Source: Peribacillus kribbensis DSM 17871 (GTDB taxonomy: Bacteria; Bacillota; Bacilli; Bacillales; DSM-1321). Taken from it: 64,000 nt of DNA. The stretch covers positions 1-64,000 of the forward strand of contig NZ_AUMQ01000016.1 in NCBI RefSeq assembly GCF_000430765.1, in the 5' to 3' direction. How positions within the stretch are numbered: the stretch's first letter is position 1; each line of letters starts with the position of its first letter. The notes under the pieces were generated by a model, which saw nothing but the letters and a program-made list of their open reading frames with translations, had not been told where the DNA came from and searched no databases. This document shows positions 25,059-63,468 of the stretch, in pieces. The position numbers and the translations under genes are program-made.

Positions 25059-25078
25059 GTAGAATCCTCCCTTCTCGC

Positions 25079-25528: not shown

Positions 25529-25532
25529 ATCC

Positions 25533-37823: not shown

Positions 37824-38810
37824 TCACCCAATTTTAACCGTTTGCTGCAATTCAAACCTATGTTTAGCCGTTTGTATATCTGTTTCTATCTGCTGAACCA
37901 GCTGGTTTAGTGAATTAAATTTTTTCTCTTCCCTTATAAAAAATTTAACCTCGACGTTGATTTTCTCTCCATAAATATCATTATAAAAATCTAAGAGATG
38001 AATTTCATAAGTTTTTTTCAAATTATTTTTAATAGTGGGTTTCACCCCTGCATTCATGACACCAAAGTAGGATGAACCACACCAATTCACTATTACACCA
38101 TAAACACCATTTCTTAAGGAATCAGATGGAGTGGACAACTCCAGGTTTGCTGTAGGGAATCCAAGCTTGCTTCCAAGCTTTTGTCCATGAATAACCTGCC
38201 CGTCTATGGTACAAATGGGATCCTTATAGAGGGATTTAAAAACTTCCGTGATATTAATAGAAGGAATACCAAACTCATGTGAAATTTCTGCAACATCTTG
38301 ATCAGCAGCGATTCCTCCTTCTTTATTAAGAATCTCACATAAATAAGTAGTATCTGAAAAACTTGAAGATATTTTTGCTAAGTCCGCCGATGCTTCAACA
38401 ACACCCATATAATCCAGCATTCCATAATCAGAGTATACAAGTGGGAATACATGGCCAGGTCTTCTAAAATCTTCAGGTTTTGAATCTTCATTAGCAACAG
38501 CTTTTATCGTAATAGCGCGTTCAAATGCGGATATTCCGGTTGTAGTGGTATGGTGATCAATAGAAATAGCGAAATTTTTACTTGGATTCATCTTCCCAGT
38601 CATGAGGGGCAAGTCGAGCTGTTTTGCTTTCCGATTGTTTAAACAAACATACACTAGCCCCTTCCCAATCTTCGCCATAAGGTTAACATGCTGCCCAGTC
38701 ACTGTCTCAGCTAACCCCATTAAATAACTTGTTTGGGTATCCGCATCATCAACCAAGATTGCCAGCTTCCCTTTTTTTAAATGCTCTTTCACTTCTCCAA
38801 GTTTGCCCAT
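37824..38810 (-). CDS. RibB-like domain fused to riboflavin kinase
   Basis: A 328-aa two-domain protein. Residues ~1-200 match 3,4-dihydroxy-2-butanone-4-phosphate synthase (RibB): HHTTTTGISAFERAITIKA, KPEDFRRPGHVFPL (His120), VVEASADLA (Glu139) and LCEILNKEGG. The catalytic acidic loop, normally D-x-D-R-E-N-E-G-D, reads DDADTQTSYL (21-30) and has lost its Arg and Glu residues, so synthase activity is doubtful. Residues ~200-325 match the riboflavin kinase domain of RibF (GQKLGSKLGFPTANLE, NGVYGVI, YEIHLLDF), without the FAD-synthetase half. It likely makes FMN from riboflavin, or senses flavin, for the neighbouring flavin enzymes. The ATG follows GGAGGGG. It is last in the CoA-transferase/lyase operon. 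Confidence 0.88.
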   Translation of the reverse strand: MGKLGEVKEHLKKGKLAILVDDADTQTSYLMGLAETVTGQHVNLMAKIGKGLVYVCLNNRKAKQLDLPLMTGKMNPSKNFAISIDHHTTTTGISAFERAITIKAVANEDSKPEDFRRPGHVFPLVYSDYGMLDYMGVVEASADLAKISSSFSDTTYLCEILNKEGGIAADQDVAEISHEFGIPSINITEVFKSLYKDPICTIDGQVIHGQKLGSKLGFPTANLELSTPSDSLRNGVYGVIVNWCGSSYFGVMNAGVKPTIKNNLKKTYEIHLLDFYNDIYGEKINVEVKFFIREEKKFNSLNQLVQQIETDIQTAKHRFELQQTVKIG

Positions 38811-38870: not shown

Positions 38871-39776
38871 TTAAACACAGGAGTGTTCAAGGATCATATT
38901 GTAGTGGCTCATCAAATTTCGATTGGACATTTCTCTAACCAAATTTAAGCTGAATCGCAGTGCTTCCATGTCGATGCCTGTTTCTATCCCTAATTCATTC
39001 ATCATAAATACTACATCCTCCGTAGCCACATTTCCCGCCGCACCCGGTGCAAATGGGCACCCGCCTAAACCTCCAATGGAAGCATCGAACCGTGTTACTC
39101 CTGATTGGAGGGCAGCTAACACATTGGCCTGGCCCATTCCGTAAGTATCGTGAAAATGGCCTGTAATCATTGCATCTGGCTGAATCTCCAAAATGCTTTT
39201 AAACAGCGAGTACACTTGTTTAGGATTTGCCCGGCCGATGGTGTCACATAAAACGATTTCATCTACATCTAAACGATTAATTTTTTTAACCATATCTAAA
39301 ACCAGTTTGTCATCCACCATTCCTTCGAACGGACACCAAAATGCGGTAGCAATATTGTATCTGACAAACATATTTTGTGCTCTGGCTTTTAAAACAACTT
39401 TTTCCAATTGGTTGATTGATTCTTCTCTAGTCATTTTTACATTTTTCAGATTAAAACTGTTGCTGGCTCCTACTACAAGAGAAACTGCCTGCACTCCCTG
39501 TTCTACTGCCCTATCAAATCCCTTTTCGTTGGGTAAAAGGGCCATATATTGAATGTTAGGATCCTGTACAATACCCTGAAGGACTTCTTTTGCATCCTTC
39601 ATTTGAGGTACATAGGCTGGATGAACAAAAGATGTTGCTTCCATTCTCTTAATTCCTGTCTTATTTAACGCATTTATAAGGGCAATTTTGTGATCAGTTG
39701 GAATAAACTCTGACTCGTTTTGAAGACCGTCCCTTGGCCCGACCTCGATTATTTCAGCCTTTTTTGGTAGATTCAC
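38871..39776 (-). CDS. HMG-CoA lyase family enzyme
   Basis: A 301-aa TIM-barrel lyase. EVGPRDGLQNE (metal and catalytic Asp/Arg), GHFHDTYGMGQAN (metal His pair) and SIGGLGGCPFAPGAAGN (mobile-loop Cys) match hydroxymethylglutaryl-CoA lyases such as MvaB. The family also includes lyases for related branched 3-hydroxyacyl-CoAs such as citramalyl-CoA. It yields acetyl-CoA or similar plus a ketoacid. Context with a CoA-transferase and a hydratase relic suggests the end of a dicarboxylic-acid route. The ATG follows AAAGGAG. Confidence 0.92.
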   Translation of the reverse strand: MNLPKKAEIIEVGPRDGLQNESEFIPTDHKIALINALNKTGIKRMEATSFVHPAYVPQMKDAKEVLQGIVQDPNIQYMALLPNEKGFDRAVEQGVQAVSLVVGASNSFNLKNVKMTREESINQLEKVVLKARAQNMFVRYNIATAFWCPFEGMVDDKLVLDMVKKINRLDVDEIVLCDTIGRANPKQVYSLFKSILEIQPDAMITGHFHDTYGMGQANVLAALQSGVTRFDASIGGLGGCPFAPGAAGNVATEDVVFMMNELGIETGIDMEALRFSLNLVREMSNRNLMSHYNMILEHSCV

Positions 39777-40052: not shown

Positions 40053-41282
40053 TTAACTTTTAACATTCGTTTCTTTTATGTCTCCAATTATTCCCTTTTC
40101 AATAAAAGAATGGAGTTCTTTCTGCTCCAATTTCAGGGTGTTTACTAGGATTTCCTCATTATGCTGTCCCAGTCTGGGTCCAGCCCAGTCTATGCCGCCC
40201 GGTGTTTCGCTTAACTTTGGAACAATTCCCGGGACCTTTAGCTTCCCAATTCCATCTACCCATACTTCTTCAATCATTTGCCGTGCATGATAATGAGGAT
40301 CAGCCACAATATCCTCAATGGAATAAATGGACCCTGCAGGTACCTTTGCTTCATCAAGCCTTCTTACCGCCTCTGCAAGATTAAGTTTTTTTGTCCATTG
40401 CTCGATCGTTAAATCCAAGAATTCCGCATGCTCCGAACGAGCTGCATTGTTCTGAAATCTGGGATCAACTGCAAATTCCGGATGTCCGATAACTTCCATC
40501 AGACGCTTAAATATTCCATCGCCGTTCGCACCGATAACAATATATTTTCCATCTTTACATTCATACGTATTGGAAGGTGTAATTCCGGGTAAGGTACTCC
40601 CCGTCCGTTCTCTTATCACCCCTGTCCTGTCATATTCGGGAAGCATGCTTTCCATAAAACTAAAAACAGATTCATATAAAGCAACATCAACAATCTGTCC
40701 TTGTCCAGTGCCTTTTAAATCCCGATGATAAACGGCCATCAAAGCACCGATGACAGCGTAAAGGGAGGAAATAGAATCCCCTATACTGATCCCTACCCTT
40801 GTTGGCGGGCGGTCAGGATAACCTGTAAGGTACCGTAACCCTCCCATTGCTTCTCCAATGGAACCAAATCCGGCTTTATCCCTGTAAGGTCCATCTTGGC
40901 CATACCCGCTAATACGGACCATAATCAGTGCCGGATTGATTTCTTTAAGTTGTTCATAGCCAATTCCCCATTTTTCCAACGTTCCGGGACGAAAGTTTTC
41001 GATGATAATGTCGACTTCCAACGCTAACCTTTTGATGATTTCCTGACCCTCTGCCTGCTTCAAATCGAGGGTAATGGATTTTTTATTTCGTGCCTGCACA
41101 TACCACCACAAACTTGTTCCATCTTCCACTACTCTCCATTTACGAATAGGGTCGCCTTCAGTTGGATTTTCTACTTTGATTACCTCTGCTCCAAATTCGG
41201 CAAAAAGCCTTCCTGCTGAAGGACCAGCAATTAATTGACCCATTTCCAATACCTTTAGCCCTGTTAACGGTTTTTGCTTCAT
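40053..41282 (-). CDS. CaiB/BaiF-family (class III) CoA-transferase
   Basis: A 409-aa class III CoA-transferase (formyl-CoA, carnitine and succinyl-CoA:acid transferase family). Typical features are GLKVLEMGQLIAGPSAGRLF, DFGAEVIKVE-like FGAEVIKVENPTEGDPIR, NKKSITLDLK, the EGQEIIKRL helix and SGYGQDGPYRDKAGFG. The catalytic Asp is expected after DIIIENFRPG. It moves CoA to a carboxylic acid. It is followed by the LeuC/LeuD scar and the lyase, so an acid-to-CoA step before hydration and cleavage is likely. It begins 3 bp after the 111-aa unknown gene. Confidence 0.92.
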   Translation of the reverse strand: MKQKPLTGLKVLEMGQLIAGPSAGRLFAEFGAEVIKVENPTEGDPIRKWRVVEDGTSLWWYVQARNKKSITLDLKQAEGQEIIKRLALEVDIIIENFRPGTLEKWGIGYEQLKEINPALIMVRISGYGQDGPYRDKAGFGSIGEAMGGLRYLTGYPDRPPTRVGISIGDSISSLYAVIGALMAVYHRDLKGTGQGQIVDVALYESVFSFMESMLPEYDRTGVIRERTGSTLPGITPSNTYECKDGKYIVIGANGDGIFKRLMEVIGHPEFAVDPRFQNNAARSEHAEFLDLTIEQWTKKLNLAEAVRRLDEAKVPAGSIYSIEDIVADPHYHARQMIEEVWVDGIGKLKVPGIVPKLSETPGGIDWAGPRLGQHNEEILVNTLKLEQKELHSFIEKGIIGDIKETNVKS

Positions 41283-41285: not shown

Positions 41286-41621
41286 CTATCCCTCCATGCT
41301 GATCTTATAAATTAAAGCTTGATCTTTCTGCATGAATAGAGGAACATCAAATGAAAAATTACCTTCCGAGTAATCCATTAAATTTTTGGATAAGTTTCCA
41401 GGACCAAACTTGATTTTCCCGTTAGCAGCTAATCCATTTTGCAAACACCAGTTTAGAAAGTGAAAGATTCTTTGTCTTCGTTCTAGGATGTTTTTGTTTC
41501 CTTTGTCAAAAAACCACTCATCAATGGTATTATAGACTCCTCGATTGATTCCAAATTGTTTAATACAGTATTGATGAAAGAGTAAATCTGGTAAATGGAC
41601 CAATTCAGTATAAAGATTCAT
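41286..41621 (-). CDS. Hypothetical protein in the CoA-transferase operon
   Basis: A 111-aa protein with no family I recognise. The ATG at 41621 follows AAGGAGG. A longer frame from 41720 has no ribosome site. It is soluble, rich in aromatic residues, with a central basic helix (NILERRQRIFHFLNWCLQNG) and a beta-rich C-terminus (KIKFGPGNLSKNLMDY). It ends 3 bp before the CoA-transferase start, so it is co-translated with it and probably serves the same pathway, perhaps as a small accessory subunit. Confidence 0.7.
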   Translation of the reverse strand: MNLYTELVHLPDLLFHQYCIKQFGINRGVYNTIDEWFFDKGNKNILERRQRIFHFLNWCLQNGLAANGKIKFGPGNLSKNLMDYSEGNFSFDVPLFMQKDQALIYKISMEG

Positions 41622-42196: not shown

Positions 42197-42697
42197 TTAA
42201 ACAGGCCAGCCCTCAGGTATTAATCCCACATTGCGGCGGAAATACAGCATCGGTTCTTTGTCCCGCTTCACGATATCTATTATTTGGCCAATGAAAATGA
42301 TATGATCACCGGCTTCGATTGTCTGAACAGTTTTGCATTCCATTACTCCTAAGGATTCTGAGATGACCGGTAAATTATTCTCAGAGTATGACCAATCTGC
42401 TTTTGAAAAACGGTCTAGACTCTTCCCCGCAAAGGCCCAGCATAATTCACATTGATCAGCTGCCAAAATATTAACAGCAAATCCGATAGAATTTTTAAAG
42501 GCGTTCAAATGTGTGGATTTACGATCCAGACACCATAAAACCATCAACGGGTCCAATGACACAGAAGCAAATGAGTTCACAGTAAGGCCAACAGGACTGC
42601 CATCTTCATTTACTGTAGTAATTATGGTCACGCCAGTTGGATAACTTCCCATAATCTGCTTGAAAGTGTCTACTGTCTCTAGATTAGTCAACCCCAT
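42197..42697 (-). CDS. Flavin reductase domain protein (NAD(P)H:FMN reductase)
   Basis: About 166 aa of the flavin-reductase-like split-barrel family (HpaC/RutF/SsuE-partner type): FKQIMGSYPTGVTIITT, VGLTVNSFASVSLDPLMVLWCLDR, GFAVNILAADQ and GDHIIFIGQIIDI. It supplies reduced FMN to group C monooxygenases. The frame opens at 42736 inside the upstream gene. The ATG at 42697 or TTG at 42691, behind AAGGGGG, are better starts. It is the last gene of the sigma-54 operon. Confidence 0.9.
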   Translation of the reverse strand: MGLTNLETVDTFKQIMGSYPTGVTIITTVNEDGSPVGLTVNSFASVSLDPLMVLWCLDRKSTHLNAFKNSIGFAVNILAADQCELCWAFAGKSLDRFSKADWSYSENNLPVISESLGVMECKTVQTIEAGDHIIFIGQIIDIVKRDKEPMLYFRRNVGLIPEGWPV

Positions 42698-42704
42698 AAC
42701 CCCC

Positions 42705-43265
42705 TTAATATAATGATGGACCCAGAACCATTCCATGAGTCACTTTTGTCAATTGGACCAAGTCATAACCAAACTTTTCTGCCTGATTTCTTATATTTTC
42801 TTCAACAATTCTTCCTTCCTCCACTGTAAAGCGCGAATGGTACAGGACACCTGGAATCGTATGTACCCTAAAGAAAGCCATCGCTGTCCGAAATCCAAGA
42901 TCCATACCAAGATAATGATGATCACTTCCGCCCGTAGCGACCAGACCTGCTGTCTTTCCCTTAATAAAATCATCAGGGACGAGATCAATTAAATTTTTCA
43001 ATGCCCCAGTAATCGTCCCTCTGTACATGGGGGATCCAAAAACATAGGCATCAGCCCTTTTAATTTTCTCTAACACCTCCTGGGTATCACGTCCGTATTC
43101 TTCTACTTTTCTCCCGTCACAGAACTCCAATACGTGCTGGGATAAATCAACAACATCAATGGTTACTTCATGATCCTCCAGCCGCGCACCCTCTAAAGCG
43201 CTTTCAACCAATGCCCGTGTCCGTCTGCTGGAAGCAGAACTTCCACAGATACCAAGTATTTGCAC
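42705..43265 (-). CDS. NADPH-dependent FMN reductase family protein
   Basis: A 186-aa flavodoxin-like reductase of the SsuE/MsuE/NAD(P)H:FMN type: ILGICGSSASSRRTRALVES (FMN phosphate loop), FGSPMYRGTITGALKNLIDLV and VATGGSDHHYLG. The start is GTG at 43265, 6 bp after GGAGGGAG. With the split-barrel reductase that follows, the operon carries two unrelated flavin reductases. This matches its two monooxygenases, though a one-to-one pairing is not proven. Confidence 0.9.
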   Translation of the reverse strand: MQILGICGSSASSRRTRALVESALEGARLEDHEVTIDVVDLSQHVLEFCDGRKVEEYGRDTQEVLEKIKRADAYVFGSPMYRGTITGALKNLIDLVPDDFIKGKTAGLVATGGSDHHYLGMDLGFRTAMAFFRVHTIPGVLYHSRFTVEEGRIVEENIRNQAEKFGYDLVQLTKVTHGMVLGPSLY

Positions 43266-43321: not shown

Positions 43322-43735
43322 TTAAGCCATGGTTACATCCTTGACCTTCACAAACCTGAAAGCAGAGACCATACTTTCTAGGTCGTAACCAACAATAACA
43401 GTTTTATAGTTTGTTATGATTGGAGAAATGCAAAGTGAAGGCACCTCTGCAAGCAAATCCCGTATTTCTTCTTCAGTCAATTGACCACTATTCATTTTTT
43501 CAATATATTGTCTTTCGAAGTTTCTCTGGGGATTGATCATGGAAAACGAAAACACATCCGGGTAAATCAGTTCTCGTACTCCCCCAGGTACCAGATTGGC
43601 TAACCTGTCAATTTCCTCTCTAGTTAAACGGAAAACACTAGTACTTTCAAACGGTATACCATTATTTTTCAGCCACGCTTTGGCAATATCCGATGATGGA
43701 TTCCCTGACTTTGCATACACTACCCATCGATCCAT
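43322..43735 (-). CDS. Cysteine-less Spx/ArsC-like protein (second copy of the pair)
   Basis: A 137-aa protein with the ArsC/Spx thioredoxin-like fold. WVVYAKSGNPSSDIAKAWL aligns with the Spx N-terminus, placing Asn12 and Ser15 where Spx has its redox Cys10 and Cys13. The late CISPIITNYKTVIVGYD matches the Spx/ArsC PII...VGY strand. There is no CxxC, so arsenate reduction or disulfide sensing is excluded. The ATG at 43735 follows GGAGGC. It lies 40 bp after its partner monooxygenase gene. The same pairing recurs at 45020-46703, so it is probably a dedicated partner or regulator of the oxygenase. The function is unknown. Confidence 0.82.
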   Translation of the reverse strand: MDRWVVYAKSGNPSSDIAKAWLKNNGIPFESTSVFRLTREEIDRLANLVPGGVRELIYPDVFSFSMINPQRNFERQYIEKMNSGQLTEEEIRDLLAEVPSLCISPIITNYKTVIVGYDLESMVSAFRFVKVKDVTMA

Positions 43736-43775
43736 ATGTCCTGCCTCCATTCCATTTATTCTTTGCTAGTCAAAC

Positions 43776-44966
43776 TTAAACCTGTACAGGCGAATATAAT
43801 TCTGTACTGATCCTTTCAGCTTCTTCAGGGGATTCTTCCTGTTTAACTGGTTTACGTACACCAGCCTGTTCTAATAACGGTAATACATTTTCGTTAAAAT
43901 ATGGCATTTCCTCAACGTAATCAAGGAATGAAACTAATGTTCCAGAAATGCCTGTTTTCGAAATCTTAATCATCTCATCTGCTACTTGTTCAGGAGTTCC
44001 GACGAATGCCCAGCCGCCCCAGCCGCCAATGAAATTCTCTCTGGCCTTGGTTAAGAAATCAATAGAGTTTGAGGATGATTCAATGCCAAACATATCACAA
44101 ATGATGTTGGCGACCTCCCAATCCCCCTGTTCACGGACATAATAATCATAGAATTCTTTTGCCTCTTTCTCCGTCGGCCGGCATACAACAAAACCAGTTG
44201 TAAACGTATTTATTTCTCTTCTAAACTCATCCCAAGCTAGTTTTTTCATATGATTGGTCCATTCCTTGGCATGTTCCATGGATTCAATATATCCAAAGTT
44301 AAAATCTGTTAATCTAGCTGAAAATTCACGTCCCTTTTTAGAGGTACCCGCACTGATTAATACCGGTCTTGGACTTTGGGATGGTTTTGGCTCCTGCCAT
44401 CCATCCTTGATCTCAAAAAAGTCACCCTTATAGTCAAAGAATTGCTCAGACCACATTTTCAAGACGACTTCCATCCATTCAGTGGCATACTCGTATCCTT
44501 TGTCGTGTTCCATTTTCTTTCCAGAAAACATATCCATTTCTTTTGGAAACCAGCCTGTAACCGTGTTCAGCCCAATTCTGCCCTTTGAAATTTCGTCGAT
44601 TGTCGACAGCATTTTGGATGCCACAATCGGATGCATAGTAGGAACATGTGAAGTACAGAATAGATAGATTTTTTTAGTAACAGCAGCCATAGCGGCAGCC
44701 CACGTATACGTTTCCATACAGTTGCCATTAAAGTTACTGGCACCGCCAAATCCACGCCAGCGTGCAACCGGTACAATACACTCGTATCCCGCATCTTCCA
44801 TCATTTTTGCAATCTTTACATTGGTCTCAAAATCTGGTTTAAATGATGTATTTGCTAAAGTCATTGAACAAGAATTACTAACATTGGGACCAAATATCCC
44901 CAACTTTAACTGATTATCATTAAACATTGGATTTCCTGCTTCTCTGAAAGCATCAAACCGGCTCAT
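43776..44966 (-). CDS. LLM-class flavin-dependent monooxygenase, RutA/SfnG-like (copy 2)
   Basis: A 396-aa bacterial-luciferase-like TIM-barrel enzyme. LKLGIFGPNVSNSCSM, VPVARWRGFGGASNFNG, TSHVPTMHPIVASKMLSTID, GRIGLNTVTGWFPKEMDMF and VLISAGTSKKGREFSA follow the pattern of RutA, SfnG and DszA, the group C enzymes that can act through flavin-N5-oxide. These use FMNH2 from a separate reductase and O2 to cleave C-N, C-S or C-halogen bonds. Two reductase genes follow. It closely resembles the product of 45486-46703 except in the C-terminal tail. The substrate is unknown. The ATG follows AGGGAGCG. Confidence 0.92.
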   Translation of the reverse strand: MSRFDAFREAGNPMFNDNQLKLGIFGPNVSNSCSMTLANTSFKPDFETNVKIAKMMEDAGYECIVPVARWRGFGGASNFNGNCMETYTWAAAMAAVTKKIYLFCTSHVPTMHPIVASKMLSTIDEISKGRIGLNTVTGWFPKEMDMFSGKKMEHDKGYEYATEWMEVVLKMWSEQFFDYKGDFFEIKDGWQEPKPSQSPRPVLISAGTSKKGREFSARLTDFNFGYIESMEHAKEWTNHMKKLAWDEFRREINTFTTGFVVCRPTEKEAKEFYDYYVREQGDWEVANIICDMFGIESSSNSIDFLTKARENFIGGWGGWAFVGTPEQVADEMIKISKTGISGTLVSFLDYVEEMPYFNENVLPLLEQAGVRKPVKQEESPEEAERISTELYSPVQV

Positions 44967-45019
44967 TATATCGCTCCCTGCTTTTTTATTAAATTACTGA
45001 TACATGAATTACAAAATGT

Positions 45020-45433
45020 TTATGCCATACTAATATCTTTCACTTTGACATAACGGAAGGTTGAGACCATTTTTTCCAGATCATAGCCGACTAAAACTGT
45101 TTTATAATCTGTAATGATGGGGGATATCACCAATGCCGGAAAAGTTGCAAGAATATCTCTTATTTCTTCTTCTGTTAATTCACCGCTGTGAATTTTATGA
45201 ATATATTCTTTTTCGGTTTTTTTCTGGGGGTTAATCATACTAAATGAAAAGGTATTAGGATATACAAGGTCCTTAGCGCCACTGGGCAAGAGGTCGGCCA
45301 GTATATCAATCTGTTCTCTTTTTATTTGAAAAATACTATAGTTTTCTGAAGGTATCCCGTTGTTTTTTAACCAAGCCTTTGCAATATCTGAAGCAGGATT
45401 TCCTGTCTTGCTATATAACACCCATTTGTCCAT
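45020..45433 (-). CDS. Cysteine-less Spx/ArsC-like protein (first copy of the pair)
   Basis: 137 aa, the same length as its paralogue at 43322-43735. WVLYSKTGNPASDIAKAWL again replaces the Spx/ArsC Cys residues with Asn12 and Ser15. VISPIITDYKTVLVGYD forms the conserved late strand. The ATG at 45433 follows AAGGAGAG, 52 bp after the partner monooxygenase gene. Strict co-duplication with the oxygenase is the main clue to function. Options are an oxygenase subunit, a flavin or substrate carrier, or an Spx-like RNA polymerase-binding regulator. Confidence 0.82.
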   Translation of the reverse strand: MDKWVLYSKTGNPASDIAKAWLKNNGIPSENYSIFQIKREQIDILADLLPSGAKDLVYPNTFSFSMINPQKKTEKEYIHKIHSGELTEEEIRDILATFPALVISPIITDYKTVLVGYDLEKMVSTFRYVKVKDISMA

Positions 45434-45485
45434 ACATTTCTCTCCTTCTTCCATGGATTGCCATTAGAGCATAACCGACCGCAGT

Positions 45486-46703
45486 TTAGCGAACGGATGA
45501 TACTAGTACGGCTGCCTCTTCTGACGTTTCTTTTAAAGATTGTGCCTCAATCTGTTCTGATGCTGACTTTTCTGAAGACTTCATAGATTTACGTACACCT
45601 GCCTGCTCAAGCAAAGGCAGTACAGTTTGGTTGAAATATGGCATCTCTTCAAGATAGTCCACAAATGACAGGAGAGTTCCAGAAACTCCAGACTTTGAGA
45701 TGTTTATTAACTTATCGGCTACTTGTTCAGGTGTTCCGACTAATGCATAACCGCCCCAGCCAGCAATAAAGTTTTCCCTGAACTTCTTATTGAAATCAGC
45801 AGATTGAGAGGCCGTATCGATATTAAAGAGGCGGCAAATGATATCCGTTACTTCGTCATCGCCTTTTTCCCTCACATAATAATTGTAATATTCCCACGCT
45901 TCCTTTTCTGTAGGACGGCAGACTACAAAGCTGGTTGTAAACGTATTAATTTCTCTCTTGTATTCTTCCCAGGCAAGCTTCTTCATGGTATTTGTCCATT
46001 CCCTGGCCTGTTCCATGGACTCAATGAAGGAGAAGTGGAAATCGACGTATTTTGCTGCAAAATTCATTCCTGCTTTTGACGAGCCCGCATTTATCAGTAC
46101 AGGCCGAGGGCTCTGGCTTGGTTTCGGCTCCTGCCATCCATCTTTAATTTCAAAGAATTCTCCTTTATGATCAAAAAACTGTTCGGACCACATTTTCAGG
46201 ACTATGTTCAGCCATTCTGCTGCGAATTCATATCCTTTATCATGCTCCAGTTTCTTTCCAGAGAACATTCCCATCTCATTTGGAAACCAGCCGTTAACAG
46301 TGTTTAATCCTATTCTGCCTTTAGAAATGCCATCAATAGTAGAAATCATTTTAGATGCAACAATCGGATGAATGGTCGGCAGATGGGATGTGCAGAAGAG
46401 ATAAATTTTTTCCGTAACAGCAGCAATCGAAGCTGCCCATGTGTAGGTTTCCATACATTCCCCATTAAAATTACTTGGCCCGCCAAATCCGCGCCACCTG
46501 GCTACAGGTACGATACACTCGTAGCCTGCAGCCTCCATCATTTTGGCAATCTTGACATTGGTTTCGAAGTTGGGCTTAAACGAAGTTTCTGCCAGAGTCA
46601 TAGCACAGGAGTTATTTACATTTGGGCCAAATATGCCCAGCTTTAGCTGATTATCATTAAACATTGGATTCCCTGCTTCTTTGAAAAGATCAAAGCGGCT
46701 CAT
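45486..46703 (-). CDS. LLM-class flavin-dependent monooxygenase, RutA/SfnG-like (copy 1)
   Basis: A 405-aa paralogue of the enzyme at 43776-44966. The barrel is the same throughout (LKLGIFGPNVNNSCAM, VPVARWRGFGGPSNFNG, GRIGLNTVNGWFPNEMGMF). Substitutions cluster around the likely substrate pocket and in the Ser/Glu-rich C-terminal tail. It should use FMNH2 and O2. The two paralogues may act on successive or related substrates. It is 19 bp after the aldehyde dehydrogenase gene, and its ATG follows AAAGGAGGA. Confidence 0.92.
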   Translation of the reverse strand: MSRFDLFKEAGNPMFNDNQLKLGIFGPNVNNSCAMTLAETSFKPNFETNVKIAKMMEAAGYECIVPVARWRGFGGPSNFNGECMETYTWAASIAAVTEKIYLFCTSHLPTIHPIVASKMISTIDGISKGRIGLNTVNGWFPNEMGMFSGKKLEHDKGYEFAAEWLNIVLKMWSEQFFDHKGEFFEIKDGWQEPKPSQSPRPVLINAGSSKAGMNFAAKYVDFHFSFIESMEQAREWTNTMKKLAWEEYKREINTFTTSFVVCRPTEKEAWEYYNYYVREKGDDEVTDIICRLFNIDTASQSADFNKKFRENFIAGWGGYALVGTPEQVADKLINISKSGVSGTLLSFVDYLEEMPYFNQTVLPLLEQAGVRKSMKSSEKSASEQIEAQSLKETSEEAAVLVSSVR

Positions 46704-46722: not shown

Positions 46723-48246
46723 TTACAAAATTTTAAATGGATCTGTAATGATGTTGCCAGTATCTACCCAGACACTCTTAACCTGTGTATATTCATTCAT
46801 GACATTAAAGCCATTTTCTCTTCCAATACCGCTGGATTTGTATCCTCCAAACGGTGAGGAATAAGAAACTTTTCGATAATTATTGATCCATACAGTACCC
46901 GCGTTAATTTTAGAAGCCATTCGGTGGGCACGTTGAACATCTTTTGTCCAAACAGCGGCCGCTAAACCAAATTCCGTATCGTTTGCAATGGATATGGCTT
47001 CTGCTTCATCTTTAAAGCGGATTAGAACTACAACAGGGCCAAAAACTTCTTCCTGGGCAATCCTCATGTCATTTGTCACATCGCCAAAGATCGTGGGCTC
47101 TACAAAGAATCCGTCTTTCAATTCAGGTGCAGCTGGGTGGTTACCTCCGTGCAGAAGAGTAGCACCTTCATCCTCTGCAATTTTGATATAACGAAGGACT
47201 TTTTCATATTGTCCCTTAAAAGCTACGGTTCCCATTTCAGATTCCATATCAAGCGGATTTCCAAGTTTGATTTGGCTTGTTCTAGCAACAAGCTTTTCGA
47301 CAAACTGATCATAGATATTTTCATGGACAAGCACTCGTGACCCAGCCATACAGGTTTGGCCAGAAGCTGCGAATACACCCGCTAAAACGCCATTGACTGC
47401 ATTTGAAAGGTCGGCATCCTCATAAATAATATTTGGGGATTTACCGCCTAGCTCTAATGTTACACGGGCAAAGTGGTCTGCAGAGTTTTTCGTGATCAGT
47501 CTGCCAGTTGCTGTAGAACCAGTAAAGGCTATTTTACGAACATCAGGATGCCTGGACAATGCCTCACCTGCTGTTTGGCCAAAACCGGTGACAAAATTTA
47601 CAACTCCAGCCGGGAAGCCAGCTTCTTTAATTAATTTTGCCAACTCTAATAGGGATGCAGGAGTTACTTCTGATGGTTTAACAACAACCGTATTTCCTGC
47701 TGCTAAAGCCGGGCATAATTTCCATAGGGTTAATAGCAATGGTGAATTCCATGGAACTATTGCGCCTATGACACCAAGAGGCTCGCGAACCGTATAATTA
47801 ATCATATTGGGTACATCAACCGGAATGCTTTCCCCATGAATTTTGTCTGCCATACCAGCAAAGTAGTAGCACCAGCCTGGGAGGGACTTTGTTTGACCGA
47901 TCATTTCCCGAATCAATTTACCATTGTCAACTACTTCACTAATAGCCAGATGCTCTGCATTTTCTGCGATCAAATCACCAAGTCTGCGGAGCAATGCACC
48001 GCGCTGGGCACCTGTGTATGTAGACCATTCACCCGTCTCAAATGCCGCTTTAGCTGCCTTTACAGCAAGATCAATATCTTCTTTTTCACCTGCTGGTGCT
48101 GTTGCCCAAACCTTTCCTGTAAACGGGTTGACAGATTCAAGCCTTTTTCCGGAAGCGCTTTCCACCCATTCGTTATTAATGAACATTTTATAATCTTTTA
48201 CTTCAGTATAAGGCAGCTGATAAACCGTTTTTGTTATTGTAGTCAA
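46723..48246 (-). CDS. NAD(P)-dependent aldehyde dehydrogenase
   Basis: A 507-aa ALDH. IVPWNSPLLLTLWKLCPALAAG, FTGSTATGRLI, the Glu in LELGGKSPN, the Cys in ASGQTCMAGSR and EEVFGPVVVL are intact. The start is TTG at 48246, 8 bp after GAGGAGG, only 1 bp after the GntR stop. It heads the enzyme genes of the sigma-54 operon and probably oxidises an aldehyde released by the monooxygenases. Confidence 0.95.
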   Translation of the reverse strand: MTTITKTVYQLPYTEVKDYKMFINNEWVESASGKRLESVNPFTGKVWATAPAGEKEDIDLAVKAAKAAFETGEWSTYTGAQRGALLRRLGDLIAENAEHLAISEVVDNGKLIREMIGQTKSLPGWCYYFAGMADKIHGESIPVDVPNMINYTVREPLGVIGAIVPWNSPLLLTLWKLCPALAAGNTVVVKPSEVTPASLLELAKLIKEAGFPAGVVNFVTGFGQTAGEALSRHPDVRKIAFTGSTATGRLITKNSADHFARVTLELGGKSPNIIYEDADLSNAVNGVLAGVFAASGQTCMAGSRVLVHENIYDQFVEKLVARTSQIKLGNPLDMESEMGTVAFKGQYEKVLRYIKIAEDEGATLLHGGNHPAAPELKDGFFVEPTIFGDVTNDMRIAQEEVFGPVVVLIRFKDEAEAISIANDTEFGLAAAVWTKDVQRAHRMASKINAGTVWINNYRKVSYSSPFGGYKSSGIGRENGFNVMNEYTQVKSVWVDTGNIITDPFKIL

Positions 48247-48247: not shown

Positions 48248-48937
48248 TTAAAAACCTCCTCTGTTTGTTATGGATTCCATTTGGTTTTGGCAAATGTATG
48301 AATCCTCAAAATGTTTCATATCACGCTGGATATGCTGTTCCATTTTTTTTGCAGCTAATTCTGGCTCATGAATGCTCAAAGCCCGGAAAATACTATAATG
48401 TTCTGCTAAAAAACTATCACTTCGGTTATATTGTTTAATAATGGTGTTTCTGCAAATTTGAATTAATGAACGGATATTGTCCATCATCTTTTTGAGCTGA
48501 TTGTTTCTTGAATAAGTAATGATCGATTCATGAAATTTTGTATTGAGAGCTATAATTTTTTGCGTATTTTTTTGCTCTATAGCTTGCTCTGTCCAGATTA
48601 ATACCTGGCTTAAGCATTCGAGTTCATCTTCCTTCATGTTTTTGGCAGCCCAATACGCCGCGATTGCTTCCAATCCAATTCGGACTTGATATAGCTCTTT
48701 TGCATCCTGTAAAGTAGGAGTAAAAACTGAAATATTCCCTTCATCATTAACAAGAAGTCCATCGCGTTCCAATTTTCTAAATGCCTCTCTAACCGGACTT
48801 CTGCTCACACCCAGGTCGGATGCTATTTTTGTGTCGATCAATCTTTCGCCGGGCATGATTTTCCCTTCTAATATTTCTGCCTCTAGTCGTTTATAAATTT
48901 GCTGGTAAAGCGGGTCAACTCGTTTAACCGGATGCAT
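48248..48937 (-). CDS. GntR-family regulator, FCD subfamily
   Basis: 229 aa. An N-terminal winged helix (residues ~8-75: LEAEILEGKIMPGERLID, SDLGVSRSPVREAFRKLERD) is followed by an all-helical FCD ligand domain (residues ~85-215; metal-site candidates Asp/His in NTKFHESII and EHYSIFRAL). FCD regulators usually sense organic acids and repress their catabolic operon. It is the first gene of the sigma-54 operon, so it likely autoregulates. The palindrome TGTATACA (49131-49138) upstream is a possible operator. Confidence 0.93.
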   Translation of the reverse strand: MHPVKRVDPLYQQIYKRLEAEILEGKIMPGERLIDTKIASDLGVSRSPVREAFRKLERDGLLVNDEGNISVFTPTLQDAKELYQVRIGLEAIAAYWAAKNMKEDELECLSQVLIWTEQAIEQKNTQKIIALNTKFHESIITYSRNNQLKKMMDNIRSLIQICRNTIIKQYNRSDSFLAEHYSIFRALSIHEPELAAKKMEQHIQRDMKHFEDSYICQNQMESITNRGGF

Positions 48938-49269
48938 GTCCGACTCATCACCCCCTGTATCATTTTGAATATTGTAATCTGTCGACTACTCACCTTTTTA
49001 AAGTGCAAAAACCATGCCAACTCTTATTCAGCGGAAAATTTTATTATAAATTGTTGTAAAAGTACTTTGGTTTAAGGGATTTTTATTTTTTTATTCAATT
49101 TTTCAAGACAAGACAACGTAGATGATATACTGTATACAAAATAGATATTTCAGTATTTGTATAATAAAGAAACACATTTTTTGTCTAAAAAATAGACAAA
49201 TGTGCCAATATTGACAATATTCAAAATTTATAATACTTTTTTGATAACAAAAATAGAGGTGGTGATATT
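48938..49269. promoter_or_regulatory. Divergent control region with sigma-54 promoter and dyads
   Basis: The 332-bp region separates the GntR operon from the sigma-54 activator. On the minus strand TTGGCATGGTTTTTGCA (49020-49004) has the exact GG-N10-GC spacing of a -24/-12 promoter and points at the GntR/ALDH/monooxygenase operon. About 160-215 bp upstream of it lie three dyads: TTTGTCTA-N5-TAGACAAA (49180-49200), AATATTG-A-CAATATT (49207-49221) and TATACAAA...TTTGTATA (~49133-49162). These are candidate enhancer or operator sites. The same region must carry the activator's own promoter. Confidence 0.8.
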
Positions 49270-50718
49270 TTGTCGGTTCTCAAAACAAGTGATTTGGATC
49301 CAGATAATCTCGATATTATTTTCAACTCTATGAATTACGGAGTAGTAATAATAGATAAAAGAGGAAAATTCGTGTTCATTAATCAGGCTGCTCAAAGAAA
49401 AATGAACCTTACATTGAATGTATGGATTGGAAAGCATATAGAAAGCTTCGTTCCTAATTCAGTCATTTACGAGGCGCTGGTTACTAAAAGCCCGAAGGTT
49501 AACAGGATTAGCAAAATAATAGGGAAAGACTTCCTCATAGATGCTGCCCCTATAGAGAACCGCGGAAAGATCATTGGCGCTATTGCAACTTACCGGGACG
49601 AAGAGGACATAACTGCACTTAAAATTTGCCTTAACTTCCCTTTCCAACAGAATGGTCATGACTTACATAATGAATTACTCTTGGATCCCTCCCTTCCTCC
49701 AGCTGAAAATGATTTTTTCATTTCACAAGACAGCCAGCTGGCAGCTGATCTTAAAAAAGTAAAAAAGCTTTCACGTTCGGATCTCTCAATTTTAATTCGA
49801 GGAGAAAGCGGAGTTGGAAAAGAAGTAATGGCCAAAAGCATTCATCATTGGTCAAATCGAAAATCAAAACCTTTTATTGCGATTAACTGTGCAGCTATAC
49901 CAGAATCATTATTAGAAAGTGAGCTTTTTGGATATAATGAAGGCGCTTTCACAGGTGCCAAGCGTAATGGCAGTAAAGGAAAGTTTGAATTGGCTAATGG
50001 CGGCACGATATTTTTGGATGAAATCGGGGATATGAGCTATCACCTACAGGCAAAGCTCTTACGGGTTCTGCAGCAAAAAGAAATTATCCGAGTTGGAGGC
50101 AGTGAAGTTATTCCAATCAATGTAAGAGTTATCGCAGCCACTAATCGTGATCTAGAAGCTATGATAATCAGTGAAACATTCCGTGAAGATTTGCTTTACA
50201 GAATTAATGGTTTCACGATAACAATTCCCCCTTTGAACAAGAGAAAAAAGGATATTGAGGTTCTTATTCACCATTTTCTCAAGGAAATTAACTGGAAATA
50301 TAATAAGGATATAAAACTAAGCCAGGAGGCTTTTGATGTTCTGCTAAACTACTCTTTTCCTGGGAATGTACGGGAATTAAGAAATGTATTAGAACAGGCC
50401 ATTTTTTTAACAGATACAAATGTAATAGAAATCATGGATCTACCCAAAAACCTATATAAGGATATTGAAGACTTACCTTATACTGAACCACAGCAAAACA
50501 ATGAAGAAATAGTACCAAGCCTTTCTCCTCTACCATCTTCGTTGGACTTTTCTCAAAATATCACTGAATTAGAAATAAAATTAATGAAAGAAGCATTAAA
50601 ACGCTCAAACCATAATCGATCAGATGCTATAAAAATGTTAGGTATATCCCGGCGTTCTTTTTATGAACGTTTGAAAAAATACAAAGATGAAATTGAAGAT
50701 TTAGAATTACAATTTTGA
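49270..50718 (+). CDS. PAS-domain sigma-54-dependent transcriptional activator
   Basis: A 482-aa enhancer-binding protein. Residues ~10-120 are a PAS sensor (IIFNSMNYGVVIIDKRGKFV, IGKHIESFVP). The AAA+ domain (~150-385) has Walker A GESGVGKE (178-185), the sigma-54 contact loop GAFTGA (225-230), Walker B GTIFLDEIGD and the arginine finger region (NVRVIAATNRDLE, FREDLLYRING). A Fis-type helix-turn-helix ends the protein (NRSDAIKMLGISRRSFYERL). The start is TTG at 49270 behind AGAGGTGG. It is divergent from, and almost certainly activates, the sigma-54 promoter at 49004-49020. The PAS ligand is unknown. Confidence 0.95.
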   Translation: MSVLKTSDLDPDNLDIIFNSMNYGVVIIDKRGKFVFINQAAQRKMNLTLNVWIGKHIESFVPNSVIYEALVTKSPKVNRISKIIGKDFLIDAAPIENRGKIIGAIATYRDEEDITALKICLNFPFQQNGHDLHNELLLDPSLPPAENDFFISQDSQLAADLKKVKKLSRSDLSILIRGESGVGKEVMAKSIHHWSNRKSKPFIAINCAAIPESLLESELFGYNEGAFTGAKRNGSKGKFELANGGTIFLDEIGDMSYHLQAKLLRVLQQKEIIRVGGSEVIPINVRVIAATNRDLEAMIISETFREDLLYRINGFTITIPPLNKRKKDIEVLIHHFLKEINWKYNKDIKLSQEAFDVLLNYSFPGNVRELRNVLEQAIFLTDTNVIEIMDLPKNLYKDIEDLPYTEPQQNNEEIVPSLSPLPSSLDFSQNITELEIKLMKEALKRSNHNRSDAIKMLGISRRSFYERLKKYKDEIEDLELQF

Positions 50719-57451: not shown

Positions 57452-59917
57452 CTACAAATATTGCTGCTGTATCTCTAGTACCATCTGAACATAGATTTCT
57501 TTTGCCTTTGGAAAATCCTGTTGAAGGAGGTGCTTGTATCCGTTTTGGATATACTTATTCCATATATACTGATAGATTTGGAGCGCATCTTTACGGGAAT
57601 CAATTTTTTCCACTAAAGCTGGGGCCATATGGTAATACTCTTGAATTAATCCTGAACCCTCCTCCTGCATAATTAACCACTCATCACGAAATTTCTTAAA
57701 AGCCAGTATCTCCTCACAGTTGTCTTTTTTCCCAAGCGCCATACAAGTAGCTGTAGTCAAGAAACACCCTGACCTCGACGAGCTACTGCTGCTATAGGAA
57801 CCTGAAGATGACTTACTATAGCTGCTACTTGAACTGTAACTAGTAGTGGATCCCTGTTCTTTCTTCTTTTTCTCTTCCTCTAAACGGGCAGTAATTTTAA
57901 TATGATGGGTTTTACATATGTTATGTCCCAACTTTGATCCTTTTGAGTAATATTGGAGAGCTAGTTCCATATTTTTCATTTTGCCTGCGCCAGTTTCATA
58001 CATTTGACCAATCAAAAAATAAGCTTCTCCTGTTGAACAATTACACAAAGTTTCATATGCCTGTTCATAATCCTTATTGTTATAATAACAAACACCAAGA
58101 AGCTCCTGTATTTCTTGACCTTTCTCCTTTTTATCTAATCCCAAATACGCCTTAGCATAATCAATCACCCGATTATAATCCCTTTTTCGATAAAAAAGTT
58201 CTGCCAGTTGAAAAATAGCTTCGGAATGCTCATAAATAGCAGCCAGTGAAAGTCTGATAATAGCCTCCTGTTCTTTTCCCTGAGCTAGTAACATACTTCC
58301 GAGTTGAAAATTTGCATCCCTGTTTAGATAATTGCCTAAATAAGTTAAATGTTCCACAGAAAGTATTTTCTTAGACTGGTAGAGGCTAAATAAAGAGCCA
58401 CCTGCCTTTTTATTTCCTTTTTCAAGTGCTAACCGATAAAACTTAGCAGCCTCTTTTTCATAATCTTGATTTTCATAATACTGACCCAATATAAAAAGAA
58501 TACCAGAATCATCACTATCTTTGAGCTTTAATACAAAATTGTAAACCTGTAGCTTTTGAAACCCTAGTTCCTTTTTATATTTTATCTTCGCTTCCAATAC
58601 TTCAGGATCTTCTGGATCCATCAAATGAATAGCATCCAGATGGGATTTGGAAGGACTCTCACCCTTTTTTTCACCAATAGTTAGTAATAATAGATTGGCT
58701 TTTTTATATCCAGCTTTGAGAAGTTCTTCAGCACTAGACTCTGCCTCTTCAAACTTTTCAAGTCCTATATAAGATTTACTCAACCTATAAAGAGTTTCTA
58801 ATTGATGAGTTCTAAGTACTCCGTTTTCAGATTTACCTATGATACTTTCCTTAATGTCACTCAAAATAGATTGTATCTTTGTTAGTATATTTTGTAATCT
58901 CTCAAAAGAAGATGTCGCTTTATCAATTTCATCCTGAACTCCAGTTCGCAATTTGATTAATCCGCTTTTATCGTAATGCTCCAACATCAGCAGAGTCCTG
59001 TTGATTTTTTCTATAACATGAAGACTTTTGTTCCGCTCCTGGTAGATATATGCAGACACCTCTTGAATCAACTGCTCAGTCTTTCGGAACAAATCCTTTC
59101 GGCTGCTCGGAACATTAAACTCTTGGAGAGCTTCAAAAAGATTTCCATCCATAATTGCAAAGTTGAGATTCATGTCCATTAATAAATCTAGCAAATTATC
59201 TCTATCCTCATGTGGAACTTGGAGCAAAATCTTTTTATTATAACCAATCGTATTTAAATAGCGAATAGGCTTATCCCAACCACTCTTAATATCAATATTC
59301 ACAAGAAGGGCGTCTGTCCTATCAAGAAAATCCCAAAAAGTTTCATTGTTATTAGATGCTAGGGAAAAATCAATATAGGTTATATGTTCATGAATGAAAG
59401 GAGTCTCACTTAAAAAATAAGTAATAACATTCCGCAAATCCATATGATATTTCCGAGCTAAAGTATCCAGTAAAACTCTGATATCAAGCCTGCTGATTTC
59501 CTCTCGGTTATGAAAGGCATTATACAAATAAATCCTCTCATCCTCACTGTGACAATGTATAATTGGGATATTTCTATTTTTCTTCATCAAAAACTCACTA
59601 TTCCGACCAGGCTGAATAATCTTGTCATAAAATAATTGCCTTCCCGCCACTGAAGTGTGCATAACACCAATTACCGTTTTTTCTCTTAATGCAGGAACTG
59701 TAATAAAAAGCTGAAGCTGCGACATAAAGTTTTCGATTACTTTCAAAAAAGATGCTTTTTCTGGATACTTAGAGTCATCAATAATCATTACTAACTCTTG
59801 TTTTATTAAATCGTGTAACTGTTTAAAGGTCTCATCCCAAATGTGACTATCTCCCTCGGTTTGAAAAACCTTCGAAAGCAGTTCTATTTCTGTCCCTTGT
59901 TTTCCTATCTCCCTCAT
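57452..59917 (-). CDS. TPR/Sel1-repeat protein with C-terminal CFLTTA domain
   Basis: An 821-aa protein without signal or membrane segments. The N-terminal ~300 residues are an uncharacterised alpha/beta region (IIHCHSEDERIYLYNAF, ILLQVPHEDRDNLLDLL). Residues ~365-675 are TPR/Sel1-like repeats (GILFILGQYYENQDYEKEAA, AIFQLAELFYRKRDYNRVI, AYFLIGQMYETGAGKMKNME). A Ser-rich linker (~689-717) leads to a CFLTTATCMALGKKDNCEE box at 718. This C-terminal Cys-rich motif occurs in several Sel1-repeat proteins. It follows the smaller dynamin-like gene by 14 bp and is surely part of the same system, perhaps as scaffold or sensor. Confidence 0.85.
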   Translation of the reverse strand: MREIGKQGTEIELLSKVFQTEGDSHIWDETFKQLHDLIKQELVMIIDDSKYPEKASFLKVIENFMSQLQLFITVPALREKTVIGVMHTSVAGRQLFYDKIIQPGRNSEFLMKKNRNIPIIHCHSEDERIYLYNAFHNREEISRLDIRVLLDTLARKYHMDLRNVITYFLSETPFIHEHITYIDFSLASNNNETFWDFLDRTDALLVNIDIKSGWDKPIRYLNTIGYNKKILLQVPHEDRDNLLDLLMDMNLNFAIMDGNLFEALQEFNVPSSRKDLFRKTEQLIQEVSAYIYQERNKSLHVIEKINRTLLMLEHYDKSGLIKLRTGVQDEIDKATSSFERLQNILTKIQSILSDIKESIIGKSENGVLRTHQLETLYRLSKSYIGLEKFEEAESSAEELLKAGYKKANLLLLTIGEKKGESPSKSHLDAIHLMDPEDPEVLEAKIKYKKELGFQKLQVYNFVLKLKDSDDSGILFILGQYYENQDYEKEAAKFYRLALEKGNKKAGGSLFSLYQSKKILSVEHLTYLGNYLNRDANFQLGSMLLAQGKEQEAIIRLSLAAIYEHSEAIFQLAELFYRKRDYNRVIDYAKAYLGLDKKEKGQEIQELLGVCYYNNKDYEQAYETLCNCSTGEAYFLIGQMYETGAGKMKNMELALQYYSKGSKLGHNICKTHHIKITARLEEEKKKKEQGSTTSYSSSSSYSKSSSGSYSSSSSSRSGCFLTTATCMALGKKDNCEEILAFKKFRDEWLIMQEEGSGLIQEYYHMAPALVEKIDSRKDALQIYQYIWNKYIQNGYKHLLQQDFPKAKEIYVQMVLEIQQQYL

Positions 59918-59931
59918 CCTACACCTCCCTC

Positions 59932-61188
59932 CTATGGTTCAGCTGCTAAAGTAAGAGAATCAATCTTATTCATAAGCCTTGAGAAACTAGTTTTTAAAAA
60001 AGCATACTCCTCATGCAAAACATTCTGTTCAGATATGCGAGCATGAATACTTGAATAAAGCTCTGCAAGATCTCGAAACTGAGTGACTTGCTTCGTATAA
60101 GATAACAATTCTCCGACTTCTTTTTGTTGTTTCAATAACATTGCACCAGTATCTTTAAAATAAATGTCCCACTCTTTAATTGCATCTTCAAATTCATCCT
60201 TAAATGTCATTCCTTTTCGAAGGGGCTTATTTGCATACTTAAAAAAAGCTTGGATATAATCTCCTGCATATTCATTTTCCAAAAGTGAGGAATATGCCGT
60301 TACACCAAATACATTTAATCCCCTTTTGGAAATAATTTCTTTCGTATTCGAGACAATTTCTTCTACTTGAGATTCCGGCTTAATATCTGCTTTATTAAAC
60401 ACAAATAAAATAGGTACATCCGCTCTAAGTTTCGCTATAAAGTCTAAATCTTTATCTGTAATCACACCATCATCTATATCCATAAGCCAAATGATAAAGT
60501 CTGCAATCCTCAACTGCTCTCTGGCAATATGTTCGTCGGTATTGTTCTCAAGCTTATACGACTCAGCTTTCGTATACCCAGGTGTATCTAATAGAATCAG
60601 ATTCTCATATGGAAAGAAAGGCGTCTGCACATTAATGTTTTTTATTAGTTTAGAAAAACTTAGTTTGTATTGGTTGTAAAATTCATGGGACAAAGCTTTA
60701 AGCGCTTCTTTACCGATATCCAGCACCTGATTCCTAAAGGTATAAGCGCTTAGCTTCTCTTTCCCCTTCATTATATATGTCGGTACGGAGGTAGTTGGTG
60801 TTTGGTCCTCTGGCAAAAGCTCCAATCCAATGATTGAATTTAGAAACTTTGATTTCCCTGCACTAAATCCCCCGCCGATTGCAATAAAATTTTTACCATC
60901 CAATATTTGAAAACGATTCATTTCTTTAATCTTATCAACAATTTGGAGCAACTTTTGATAGATCGCTATTTCATCTACCATATCAAATTTCCCTGCAAAC
61001 TTACGGAAATCATCCTGAATAAGACGTTCTAAACGATACATTGCTCTTTTCAAGTCAGGTAAAATCTCTTTTGTTTTCAATAGGTTAGATATTAAAATGA
61101 GCGCTTCTTCAGGATTATCTAAATATCGATTTGAAGCCTTAGATTTTTTATATCCTTCATCCTTATCTATGTCATCCAAAAAGTTCAT
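59932..61188 (-). CDS. Dynamin-like GTPase (short)
   Basis: 418 aa. The GTPase motifs are complete: G1 GGFSAGKS (106-113), switch Thr in PEDQTPTTSVPT, G3 DTPG (201-204) and G4 NKAD (265-268). Helical arms precede (1-95) and follow (~310-418) the G domain. There is no clear membrane helix. Bacterial dynamin-like proteins often work as unequal pairs that remodel membranes; the larger partner is encoded 24 bp upstream. The ATG follows CTGGAGAAG. Confidence 0.9.
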   Translation of the reverse strand: MNFLDDIDKDEGYKKSKASNRYLDNPEEALILISNLLKTKEILPDLKRAMYRLERLIQDDFRKFAGKFDMVDEIAIYQKLLQIVDKIKEMNRFQILDGKNFIAIGGGFSAGKSKFLNSIIGLELLPEDQTPTTSVPTYIMKGKEKLSAYTFRNQVLDIGKEALKALSHEFYNQYKLSFSKLIKNINVQTPFFPYENLILLDTPGYTKAESYKLENNTDEHIAREQLRIADFIIWLMDIDDGVITDKDLDFIAKLRADVPILFVFNKADIKPESQVEEIVSNTKEIISKRGLNVFGVTAYSSLLENEYAGDYIQAFFKYANKPLRKGMTFKDEFEDAIKEWDIYFKDTGAMLLKQQKEVGELLSYTKQVTQFRDLAELYSSIHARISEQNVLHEEYAFLKTSFSRLMNKIDSLTLAAEP

Positions 61189-61212
61189 TTCTTCTCCAGC
61201 CTTTTTCCTATT

Positions 61213-63465: not shown

Positions 63466-63468
63466 ATC

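Follow-up and report, generated by a model that had tools for sequence, protein, structure and literature searches.

Spx-like proteins without the redox cysteine pair are encoded behind RutA/SfnG-like flavin oxygenases in Peribacillus kribbensis and a few other Bacillales

The stretch of DNA analyzed here (hereafter the window: 64,000 nucleotides of Peribacillus kribbensis DSM 17871, positions 1 to 64,000 of contig NZ_AUMQ01000016.1) carries on its minus strand, at 43322–46703, two tandem two-gene units. Each consists of a gene for a RutA/SfnG-like luciferase-like monooxygenase (LLM) and, behind it, a gene for a 137-aa protein of predicted Spx/ArsC fold, which we call SpxL. An earlier reading of the letters alone (the sequence-only reading) had noticed the tandem duplication and the placement of each small protein directly behind its oxygenase gene. 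Both units are present as described, and each of the 13 SpxL genes that we could assemble from eight loci comes immediately after a co-directional LLM gene, at a distance of 17 to 239 nt, so that the adjacency is not a matter of chance. As far as we have searched, this pairing is new: the literature searched yielded no description of an LLM oxygenase with an Spx-like partner, in agreement with the sequence-only reading, which knew of no described role for such a protein in a two-component flavin oxygenase system. We propose, with a confidence that falls slightly short of an even chance, that SpxL is a redox-dead Spx/ArsC-fold protein dedicated to assisting a two-component flavin oxygenase of the RutA type.

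Distribution and divergence of the SpxL–LLM units

In the direction of transcription, the two units comprise LLM1 (45486–46703), SpxL1 (45020–45433; 137 aa from a conserved Met, the longest open reading frame (ORF) starting at 45454), LLM2 (43776–44966) and SpxL2 (43322–43735; 137 aa from the conserved start, the longest ORF reaching 43750). The paralogous oxygenases are 77% identical, the paralogous SpxL proteins 68%, and synonymous sites are saturated, which makes the duplication an old one.

A scan of the SpxL alignment against 84,980 species genomes, which used short conserved patterns and may have missed divergent members, returned six loci, in Neobacillus muris, Bacillus sp. B15-48, Aneurinibacillus danicus, Domibacillus iocasae, Paenibacillus sp. 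BSR1-1 and Peribacillus glennii. Among 72,556 plasmid records SpxL occurred in three, all from Peribacillus and each with the doubled pair. The set of 13 genes used throughout stems from the window, one of these plasmids and the six species-genome loci; the neighborhood search suggested by the sequence-only reading thus revealed the same pairing in other genomes. One LLM gene, at locus L013, is frameshifted.

Smaller samples gave a consistent picture. Order-wide, SpxL was found in 2 of 397 genomes, P. kribbensis included, and a close LLM (E ≤ 1e-90) in the same two. The family sample had SpxL in 2 of 43 genomes and an LLM (E ≤ 1e-60) in three, the third LLM being 37% identical and devoid of SpxL. 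Across the phylum, an LLM at E ≤ 1e-50 was present in 1 of 398 genomes, the window's own, and the SpxL alignment matched eight of the 398 at E ≤ 1e-6, again including the window's own. We did not count the other seven matches (E 5e-11 to 6e-7) as SpxL: the Cys is kept where the ORF spans the motif (L019, L021) and several cross stop codons. Blastp found no LLM gene at these seven loci, of 2.6–3.4 kb each. The viral collection contained no SpxL relative, with either a protein or an alignment query. SpxL looks specific to one Bacillales clade of LLMs, bearing in mind that the loci were found through SpxL; only the LLM searches could reveal loci with LLM kept and SpxL lost.

The SpxL genes evolve under purifying selection. 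In a comparison of the window with N. muris, the ratio of nonsynonymous to synonymous divergence (dN/dS) was 0.12 for both SpxL genes, 0.05 for LLM1, 0.03 for LLM2, 0.12 for both the HMG-CoA-lyase-like and the GntR gene described below, and 0.14 and 0.10 for the two reductase genes. The synonymous divergence (dS) was also compared between copies within a genome. In D. iocasae it was 0.27 for SpxL versus 3.4 for LLM, and in Peribacillus frigoritolerans 0.35 versus 1.41; in these two lineages the SpxL copies were homogenized and the LLM copies were not. Both pairs are old in the window, in N. muris and in Bacillus sp. B15-48. The low SpxL values relative to those of LLM imply that the SpxL copies are interchangeable, or were so when homogenized, and that LLM1 and LLM2 are distinct, as for a partner shared by both oxygenases. 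In the LLM tree, support was obtained for the LLM2 side, to which the long-branched single LLM of P. glennii belongs, but not for the LLM1 side as a clade; the SpxL tree has many open forks.

Fold and residues of SpxL

A structure model built from 11 SpxL sequences had a mean predicted local distance difference test score (pLDDT) of 65.8 and a predicted template modeling score (pTM) of 0.64, with low confidence at residues 60–69 and 117–137. Searches with this model (Foldseek and VIA-align) placed Spx and ArsC proteins first, and its superposition on Spx gave a Z of 11.9 over 107 aligned residues, at 2.8 Å and 25% identity. Because a sequence profile of SpxL also retrieved Spx chains (E 3e-7), the fold call does not depend on the model alone. 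Profile and model thus agree in predicting the ArsC/Spx fold that the sequence-only reading had recognized, and the small protein modeled on its own came out as thioredoxin-like, which that reading had made a test of its proposal.

Both SpxL proteins scored below the NCBIfam cut-offs, at 31.3 and 24.4 bits for the Spx subfamily model (cut-off 123) and 29.8 and 29.6 bits for TIGR01617 (cut-off 75.05), and just below the Pfam ArsC cut-off of 24 bits, at 19 and 21.9; in a Pfam search of the genome the pair scored 22.5 and 19.3. Two other ArsC-family proteins of the same genome, found by Pfam search, are above the family cut-off and keep the CXXC motif.

Compared with Spx of Bacillus subtilis, a member of the ArsC/Spx/MgsR family, SpxL is alike in fold and in G52, which is retained in 13 of 13. 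It differs in the absence of the CXXC motif and of R60, K62 and R92, in some 12 extra residues inserted behind the site that corresponds to Spx N68, in its C-terminus and in its location within a catabolic operon. In an alignment with the genome's own Spx, both window copies have Asn for C10 and Ser for C13, as the sequence-only reading stated for the redox pair; across the 13 genes the first position is always Asn and the second Ser, Tyr or Phe. R60 is replaced by D, N or T, K62 by F, and R92, the Arg preceding the cis-Pro, by Ser or Thr, each in all 13. The term "cysteine-less" used in that reading is exact for 11 of the 13 proteins; SpxL2 of the window has Cys102 and SpxL2 of Bacillus sp. 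B15-48 has Cys92, both remote from the redox motif. The motifs it quoted stand, save that SpxL1 reads YSKTGNPASDIAKAWL, with T replacing S. Residues G11-N12-P13, S63, N68-P69-Q70, R127 and D133 of SpxL are invariant.

Arsenate reductases of the ArsC type use a catalytic Cys and an Arg before the cis-Pro (RPI). As the Cys is Asn and the Arg is Ser or Thr in all 13 proteins, we rejected arsenate reduction as the function of SpxL.

The oxygenases and their operon

LLM2 matched Bac_luciferase with 159.4 bits, and its best solved relatives were RutA and dimethylsulfone monooxygenase. Judged by the NCBIfam equivalog cut-offs, neither window oxygenase is RutA proper (174.7 and 192.2 versus 498.3 bits) or SfnG proper (185.5 and 182.2 versus 382.95 bits). 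From position 20 to 143 the alignment of LLM2 with RutA is free of gaps, so that residue numbers match the published ones. The dioxygen pocket of RutA includes T105, N134, V136 and F224, according to PMC7662398 and PMC8234197; the 11 LLMs that we aligned have all four without variation. The dioxygen motif of RutA-type (N5) group C LLMs is given in the latter paper as F/L-T/S-NxV-A-F/L/Y; here position 65 is Val in place of Leu or Phe, x is Thr, and we assigned the motif Ala to A206 by position. A flavin N5-peroxide mechanism is plausible. The likeness to the RutA–RutF pyrimidine oxygenase thus covers the LLM fold, the four pocket residues and a flavin reductase partner, whereas the scores lie far under the RutA cut-off, position 65 is Val, and the rut gene list of PMC7662398 contains no Spx-like protein.

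On the minus strand, the operon reads GntR, aldehyde dehydrogenase, LLM1, SpxL1, LLM2, SpxL2, FMN reductase, flavin reductase, a 111-aa orphan, class III CoA-transferase, an aldolase resembling 3-hydroxy-3-methylglutaryl-CoA lyase (HMG-CoA lyase, HMGL) and a RibB–riboflavin kinase fusion. The GntR/FCD regulator gene lies at 48248–48937 and the first enzyme gene, for the aldehyde dehydrogenase (Aldedh, 617.6 bits), at 46723–48246. Two reductase genes, as expected of a two-component system, follow SpxL2: one for an NAD(P)H:FMN reductase (42705–43265), MsuE/SsuE-like and under the cut-offs of those models, and one for a flavin reductase with an HpaC/RutF-like domain (42197–42736). The orphan (41286–41621, longest ORF to 41720) has no Pfam, NCBIfam or PHROG match, and relatives at L006, L009 and L012, with a broken one at L010. 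The CoA-transferase (40053–41282) has solved relatives including succinate-hydroxymethylglutarate CoA-transferase; it is followed by the HMGL-like gene (38871–39776) and by the fusion gene (37824–38810; DHBP_synthase 165.4 and Flavokinase 132.2 bits), which presumably serves flavin supply. Separate RibB or riboflavin kinase genes lie near the related operons L006, L010 and L012, and RibBA or RibB occurs in two Rhizobium loci.

Bacillus sp. B15-48 has 31 residues of the FMN reductase left, and no flavin reductase was found in its operon; on the Peribacillus plasmid (L006), 48 aligned residues of the FMN reductase are left and the flavin reductase is intact. A reductase remnant, or none, was found in the L010 and L011 operons. 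SpxL itself is retained at L006, whose FMN reductase has decayed, and at L010 and L011, whose two reductases have decayed or were not found.

Divergently from the operon, on the plus strand at 49270–50718, lies a gene for a sigma-54 activator with AAA+ and Fis-type helix-turn-helix domains. Between it and the GntR gene, at 49004–49019 on the minus strand, we found a sigma-54 type promoter, TGGCATGGTTTTTGCA, the only perfect TGGCAY-N5-TTGCW match in the window. In four of the five other operons of this type, L006, L009, L010 and L012, a single perfect site immediately precedes the GntR gene, and L011 has a site with one mismatch. The L009 site lies inside the longest GntR ORF, yet before the start that aligns with the window's. 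Matches with one mismatch are at chance level in the window (4 versus 4.7 expected), and L013 and L014 contain perfect sites (four and one, respectively) at a distance from their LLM genes, so the argument for this promoter rests on position and recurrence.

The LLM–SpxL–FMN reductase series is found in two settings. The first is the CoA-transferase/HMGL operon, in the window and five other loci. In the five related loci, genes for the CoA-transferase, a LeuCD-like hydratase and the HMGL-like enzyme form one block. In P. kribbensis the LeuCD-like gene sits on another contig (L039, C14:8001-28000), in a second CoA-transferase–LeuCD-like–HMGL block at 7467–14782 on the minus strand. That block also has a EutA-like protein (well under the model cut-off), a major facilitator superfamily (MFS) transporter, a GntR gene and a tartrate dehydrogenase above its model cut-off (492.2 versus 470.4 bits). 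The second setting, at L013 and L014, is a single LLM–SpxL pair near hydantoinase A/B genes, which hint at an amide- or lactam-containing substrate. The hydantoinase A/B pair spans 1435–5725 at L014 and 15632–19908 at L013, and its two proteins are 88% and 78% identical between the loci.

Elsewhere in the window, the minus strand holds at 14263–28511 a probable cluster for aromatic-compound catabolism, with flavoprotein/UbiD-type decarboxylase genes, an R2-like ligand-binding oxidase (above cut-off), an iron-type alcohol dehydrogenase, an aldehyde dehydrogenase, an MFS protein, an enoyl-CoA hydratase, an AMP-dependent ligase and a molybdenum hydroxylase with a maturation gene. At 57452–63885, on the same strand, a tetratricopeptide repeat protein, two dynamin-family GTPases and a 138-aa ORF stand in a row, one GTPase being a weak match to the PADLOC model LeoBC. 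PADLOC returned nothing for SpxL2 or LLM2.

Possible roles of SpxL

Since the SpxL gene immediately follows that of a particular type of flavin oxygenase in the few Bacillales where it was found, a role as an accessory of that oxygenase is probable. We infer that it would act at the oxygenase step, most likely by binding both LLM1 and LLM2, and that it might hold or gate the oxygenase with reduced FMN (FMNH2), without transferring thiols or electrons. FMNH2 would come from the operon's flavin reductases and FMN from the RibB–riboflavin kinase. The LLM would oxidatively cleave the substrate, perhaps a heterocyclic or amide-type compound, and the aldehyde dehydrogenase would yield an acid; the CoA-transferase, the HMGL-like enzyme and the LeuCD-like hydratase encoded elsewhere in the genome would then cleave a C4–C5 dicarboxylate. 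As a guess, the lower route might run from citraconate through (R)-citramalyl-CoA to acetyl-CoA and pyruvate, a reading that derives from the biochemistry of HMGL-type citramalyl-CoA lyases. Literature searches on heterocycle cleavage by LLM enzymes and on a citramalyl-CoA route gave nothing informative on the substrate. A more specific version, possible though doubtful, is that redox-dead Spx-fold subunits are a third kind of component, docking on N5-type (RutA-like) LLMs and controlling how the flavin N5-(per)oxide forms or what becomes of it, with one subunit type for two paralogous oxygenases.

Several observations weigh against a dedicated, tightly coupled accessory. The one-to-one pairing claimed by the sequence-only reading holds for every SpxL gene, but A. 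danicus has a single SpxL for its two LLM genes; behind its LLM2, neither a second SpxL nor either of the reductases was found, even at E ≤ 10. (A remnant suspected by eye was not confirmed at this threshold, and we took the gene as absent.) In two loci the LLM1–SpxL1 gaps are 213 and 239 nt. LLM position 65 is Val, where the motif of PMC8234197 has Leu or Phe and RutA has L65. The edge of the former active site of SpxL shows no significant excess of conservation over the remaining positions (mean 0.81 versus 0.75; 26 of 136 shifted masks reach 0.81), and the pLDDT of 65.8 makes the model one of middling confidence. Finally, plasmid records with an LLM relative (E ≤ 1e-40) number 113, of which 71 are from Rhizobium and 110 are below 60% identity; 110 of the 113 have no SpxL match, so the wider LLM family does not need SpxL. 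Five such loci showed no Spx-like gene in the annotation or by tblastn at E ≤ 0.01.

The nearest LLM found outside the clade, 56% identical, belongs to a Rhizobium plasmid operon (R. etli p42d, R. tropici CIAT 899). This operon resembles the present one in having a flavin reductase, an acylhomoserine-lactonase-type protein, GntR and, in R. etli, RibBA. It differs in that tblastn found no SpxL (L024, L025) and that a carboxymuconolactone-decarboxylase-family gene adjoins the LLM. The Rhizobium LLM recurs on many Rhizobium plasmids with Phaseolus as the listed source.

A partial precedent is the cmoO-cmoI-cmoJ-ribR cluster of B. subtilis (S-methyl/alkyl-cysteine salvage), in which a small thioredoxin-fold protein is encoded between two flavin oxygenases. 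CmoO is an LLM, RibR a riboflavin kinase and CmoI a glutaredoxin-like protein with cysteines; the three cmo genes are presumably those also called ytmO, ytnI and ytnJ. PMC3862929 lists ytnI as a redoxin and the other two, ytmO and ytnJ, as monooxygenases, and PMC10863075 states that the CmoJ product, a sulfenic acid, requires reduction. CmoI could be the agent of this reduction, whereas SpxL cannot reduce a sulfenic acid through a Cys pair that it lacks: the arrangement is similar, but no Cys-bearing redoxin stands between the two monooxygenases. A search of the P. kribbensis genome for a CmoI-like glutaredoxin beside an LLM gave five glutaredoxin-family matches, namely Spx, a second ArsC-family protein and three others, with no LLM relative near the latter four (blastp, E ≤ 1e-3).

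Rather than assisting the oxygenase, SpxL might be a separate thiol-free enzyme, using the thioredoxin fold in the manner of glutathione S-transferases (GST) or isomerases, for which the reactive compound formed directly by the oxygenase would be the substrate. This would account for both the constant linkage and the interchangeable copies, the invariant residues listed above could form a pocket, and in a plasmid locus of R. leguminosarum WSM2304 a GST-fold gene immediately precedes that for the aldehyde dehydrogenase and is two genes upstream of the LLM. We nevertheless regard it as rather improbable: we can name no set of catalytic residues, the Arg that precedes the cis-Pro (Spx R92) is lost as well, and no significant conservation peak marks the old active site.

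The sequence-only reading had also considered a regulator that binds RNA polymerase, as Spx does. In Spx, the CXXC center is required for redox-controlled activation, R60E nearly abolishes activation and K62E lowers it, and G52 is part of the interface with the C-terminal domain of the RNA polymerase alpha subunit (alphaCTD), according to PMC2801614. With C10, C13, R60, K62 and R92 all lost and a sigma-54 promoter and activator belonging to the operon itself, an Spx-type activator appears unlikely; contact with RNA polymerase is conceivable, as G52 is kept. SpxL could then be a redox-blind regulator that binds alphaCTD and, like Spx at srfA, keeps other activators from acting. Its fold is nearest to Spx, and the same paper describes R60 and K62 as dispensable for the negative role of Spx. 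Yet G52 is not diagnostic, being present in two Cys-bearing ArsC-family proteins (L019, L021) as well, the five other residues are gone, the operon already has GntR besides its sigma-54 elements, and there is no need for a regulator gene behind each oxygenase gene. Such a role strikes us as distinctly unlikely.

Two further explanations were considered. SpxL might act as a decoy for the Spx adaptor YjbH/ClpXP, raising Spx and so pre-arming the cell against peroxide, which flavin oxygenases can leak; the two best Foldseek matches of the model are indeed Spx in complex with YjbH, but the C-terminal tail of SpxL is unlike that of Spx, and we consider the idea very improbable. Least probable of all, SpxL would be without a role, a decaying or selfish gene that travels along with a mobile catabolic operon, as the patchy distribution of SpxL, the plasmid carriage in Peribacillus and the copy missing in A. 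danicus might suggest, against which stand the dN/dS of both copies and the presence of SpxL in all eight loci (found, admittedly, through SpxL) while reductase genes decay.

The accessory role thus remains the reading that we prefer. Flavin oxygenases of the RutA kind have been described as needing an oxygenase and a flavin reductase, and a recurring third gene suggests an unrecognized control of oxygen activation or of product handling. If the proposal is true, the fold of a stress regulator and transcription factor would have been recruited as a catabolic accessory or enzyme subunit.

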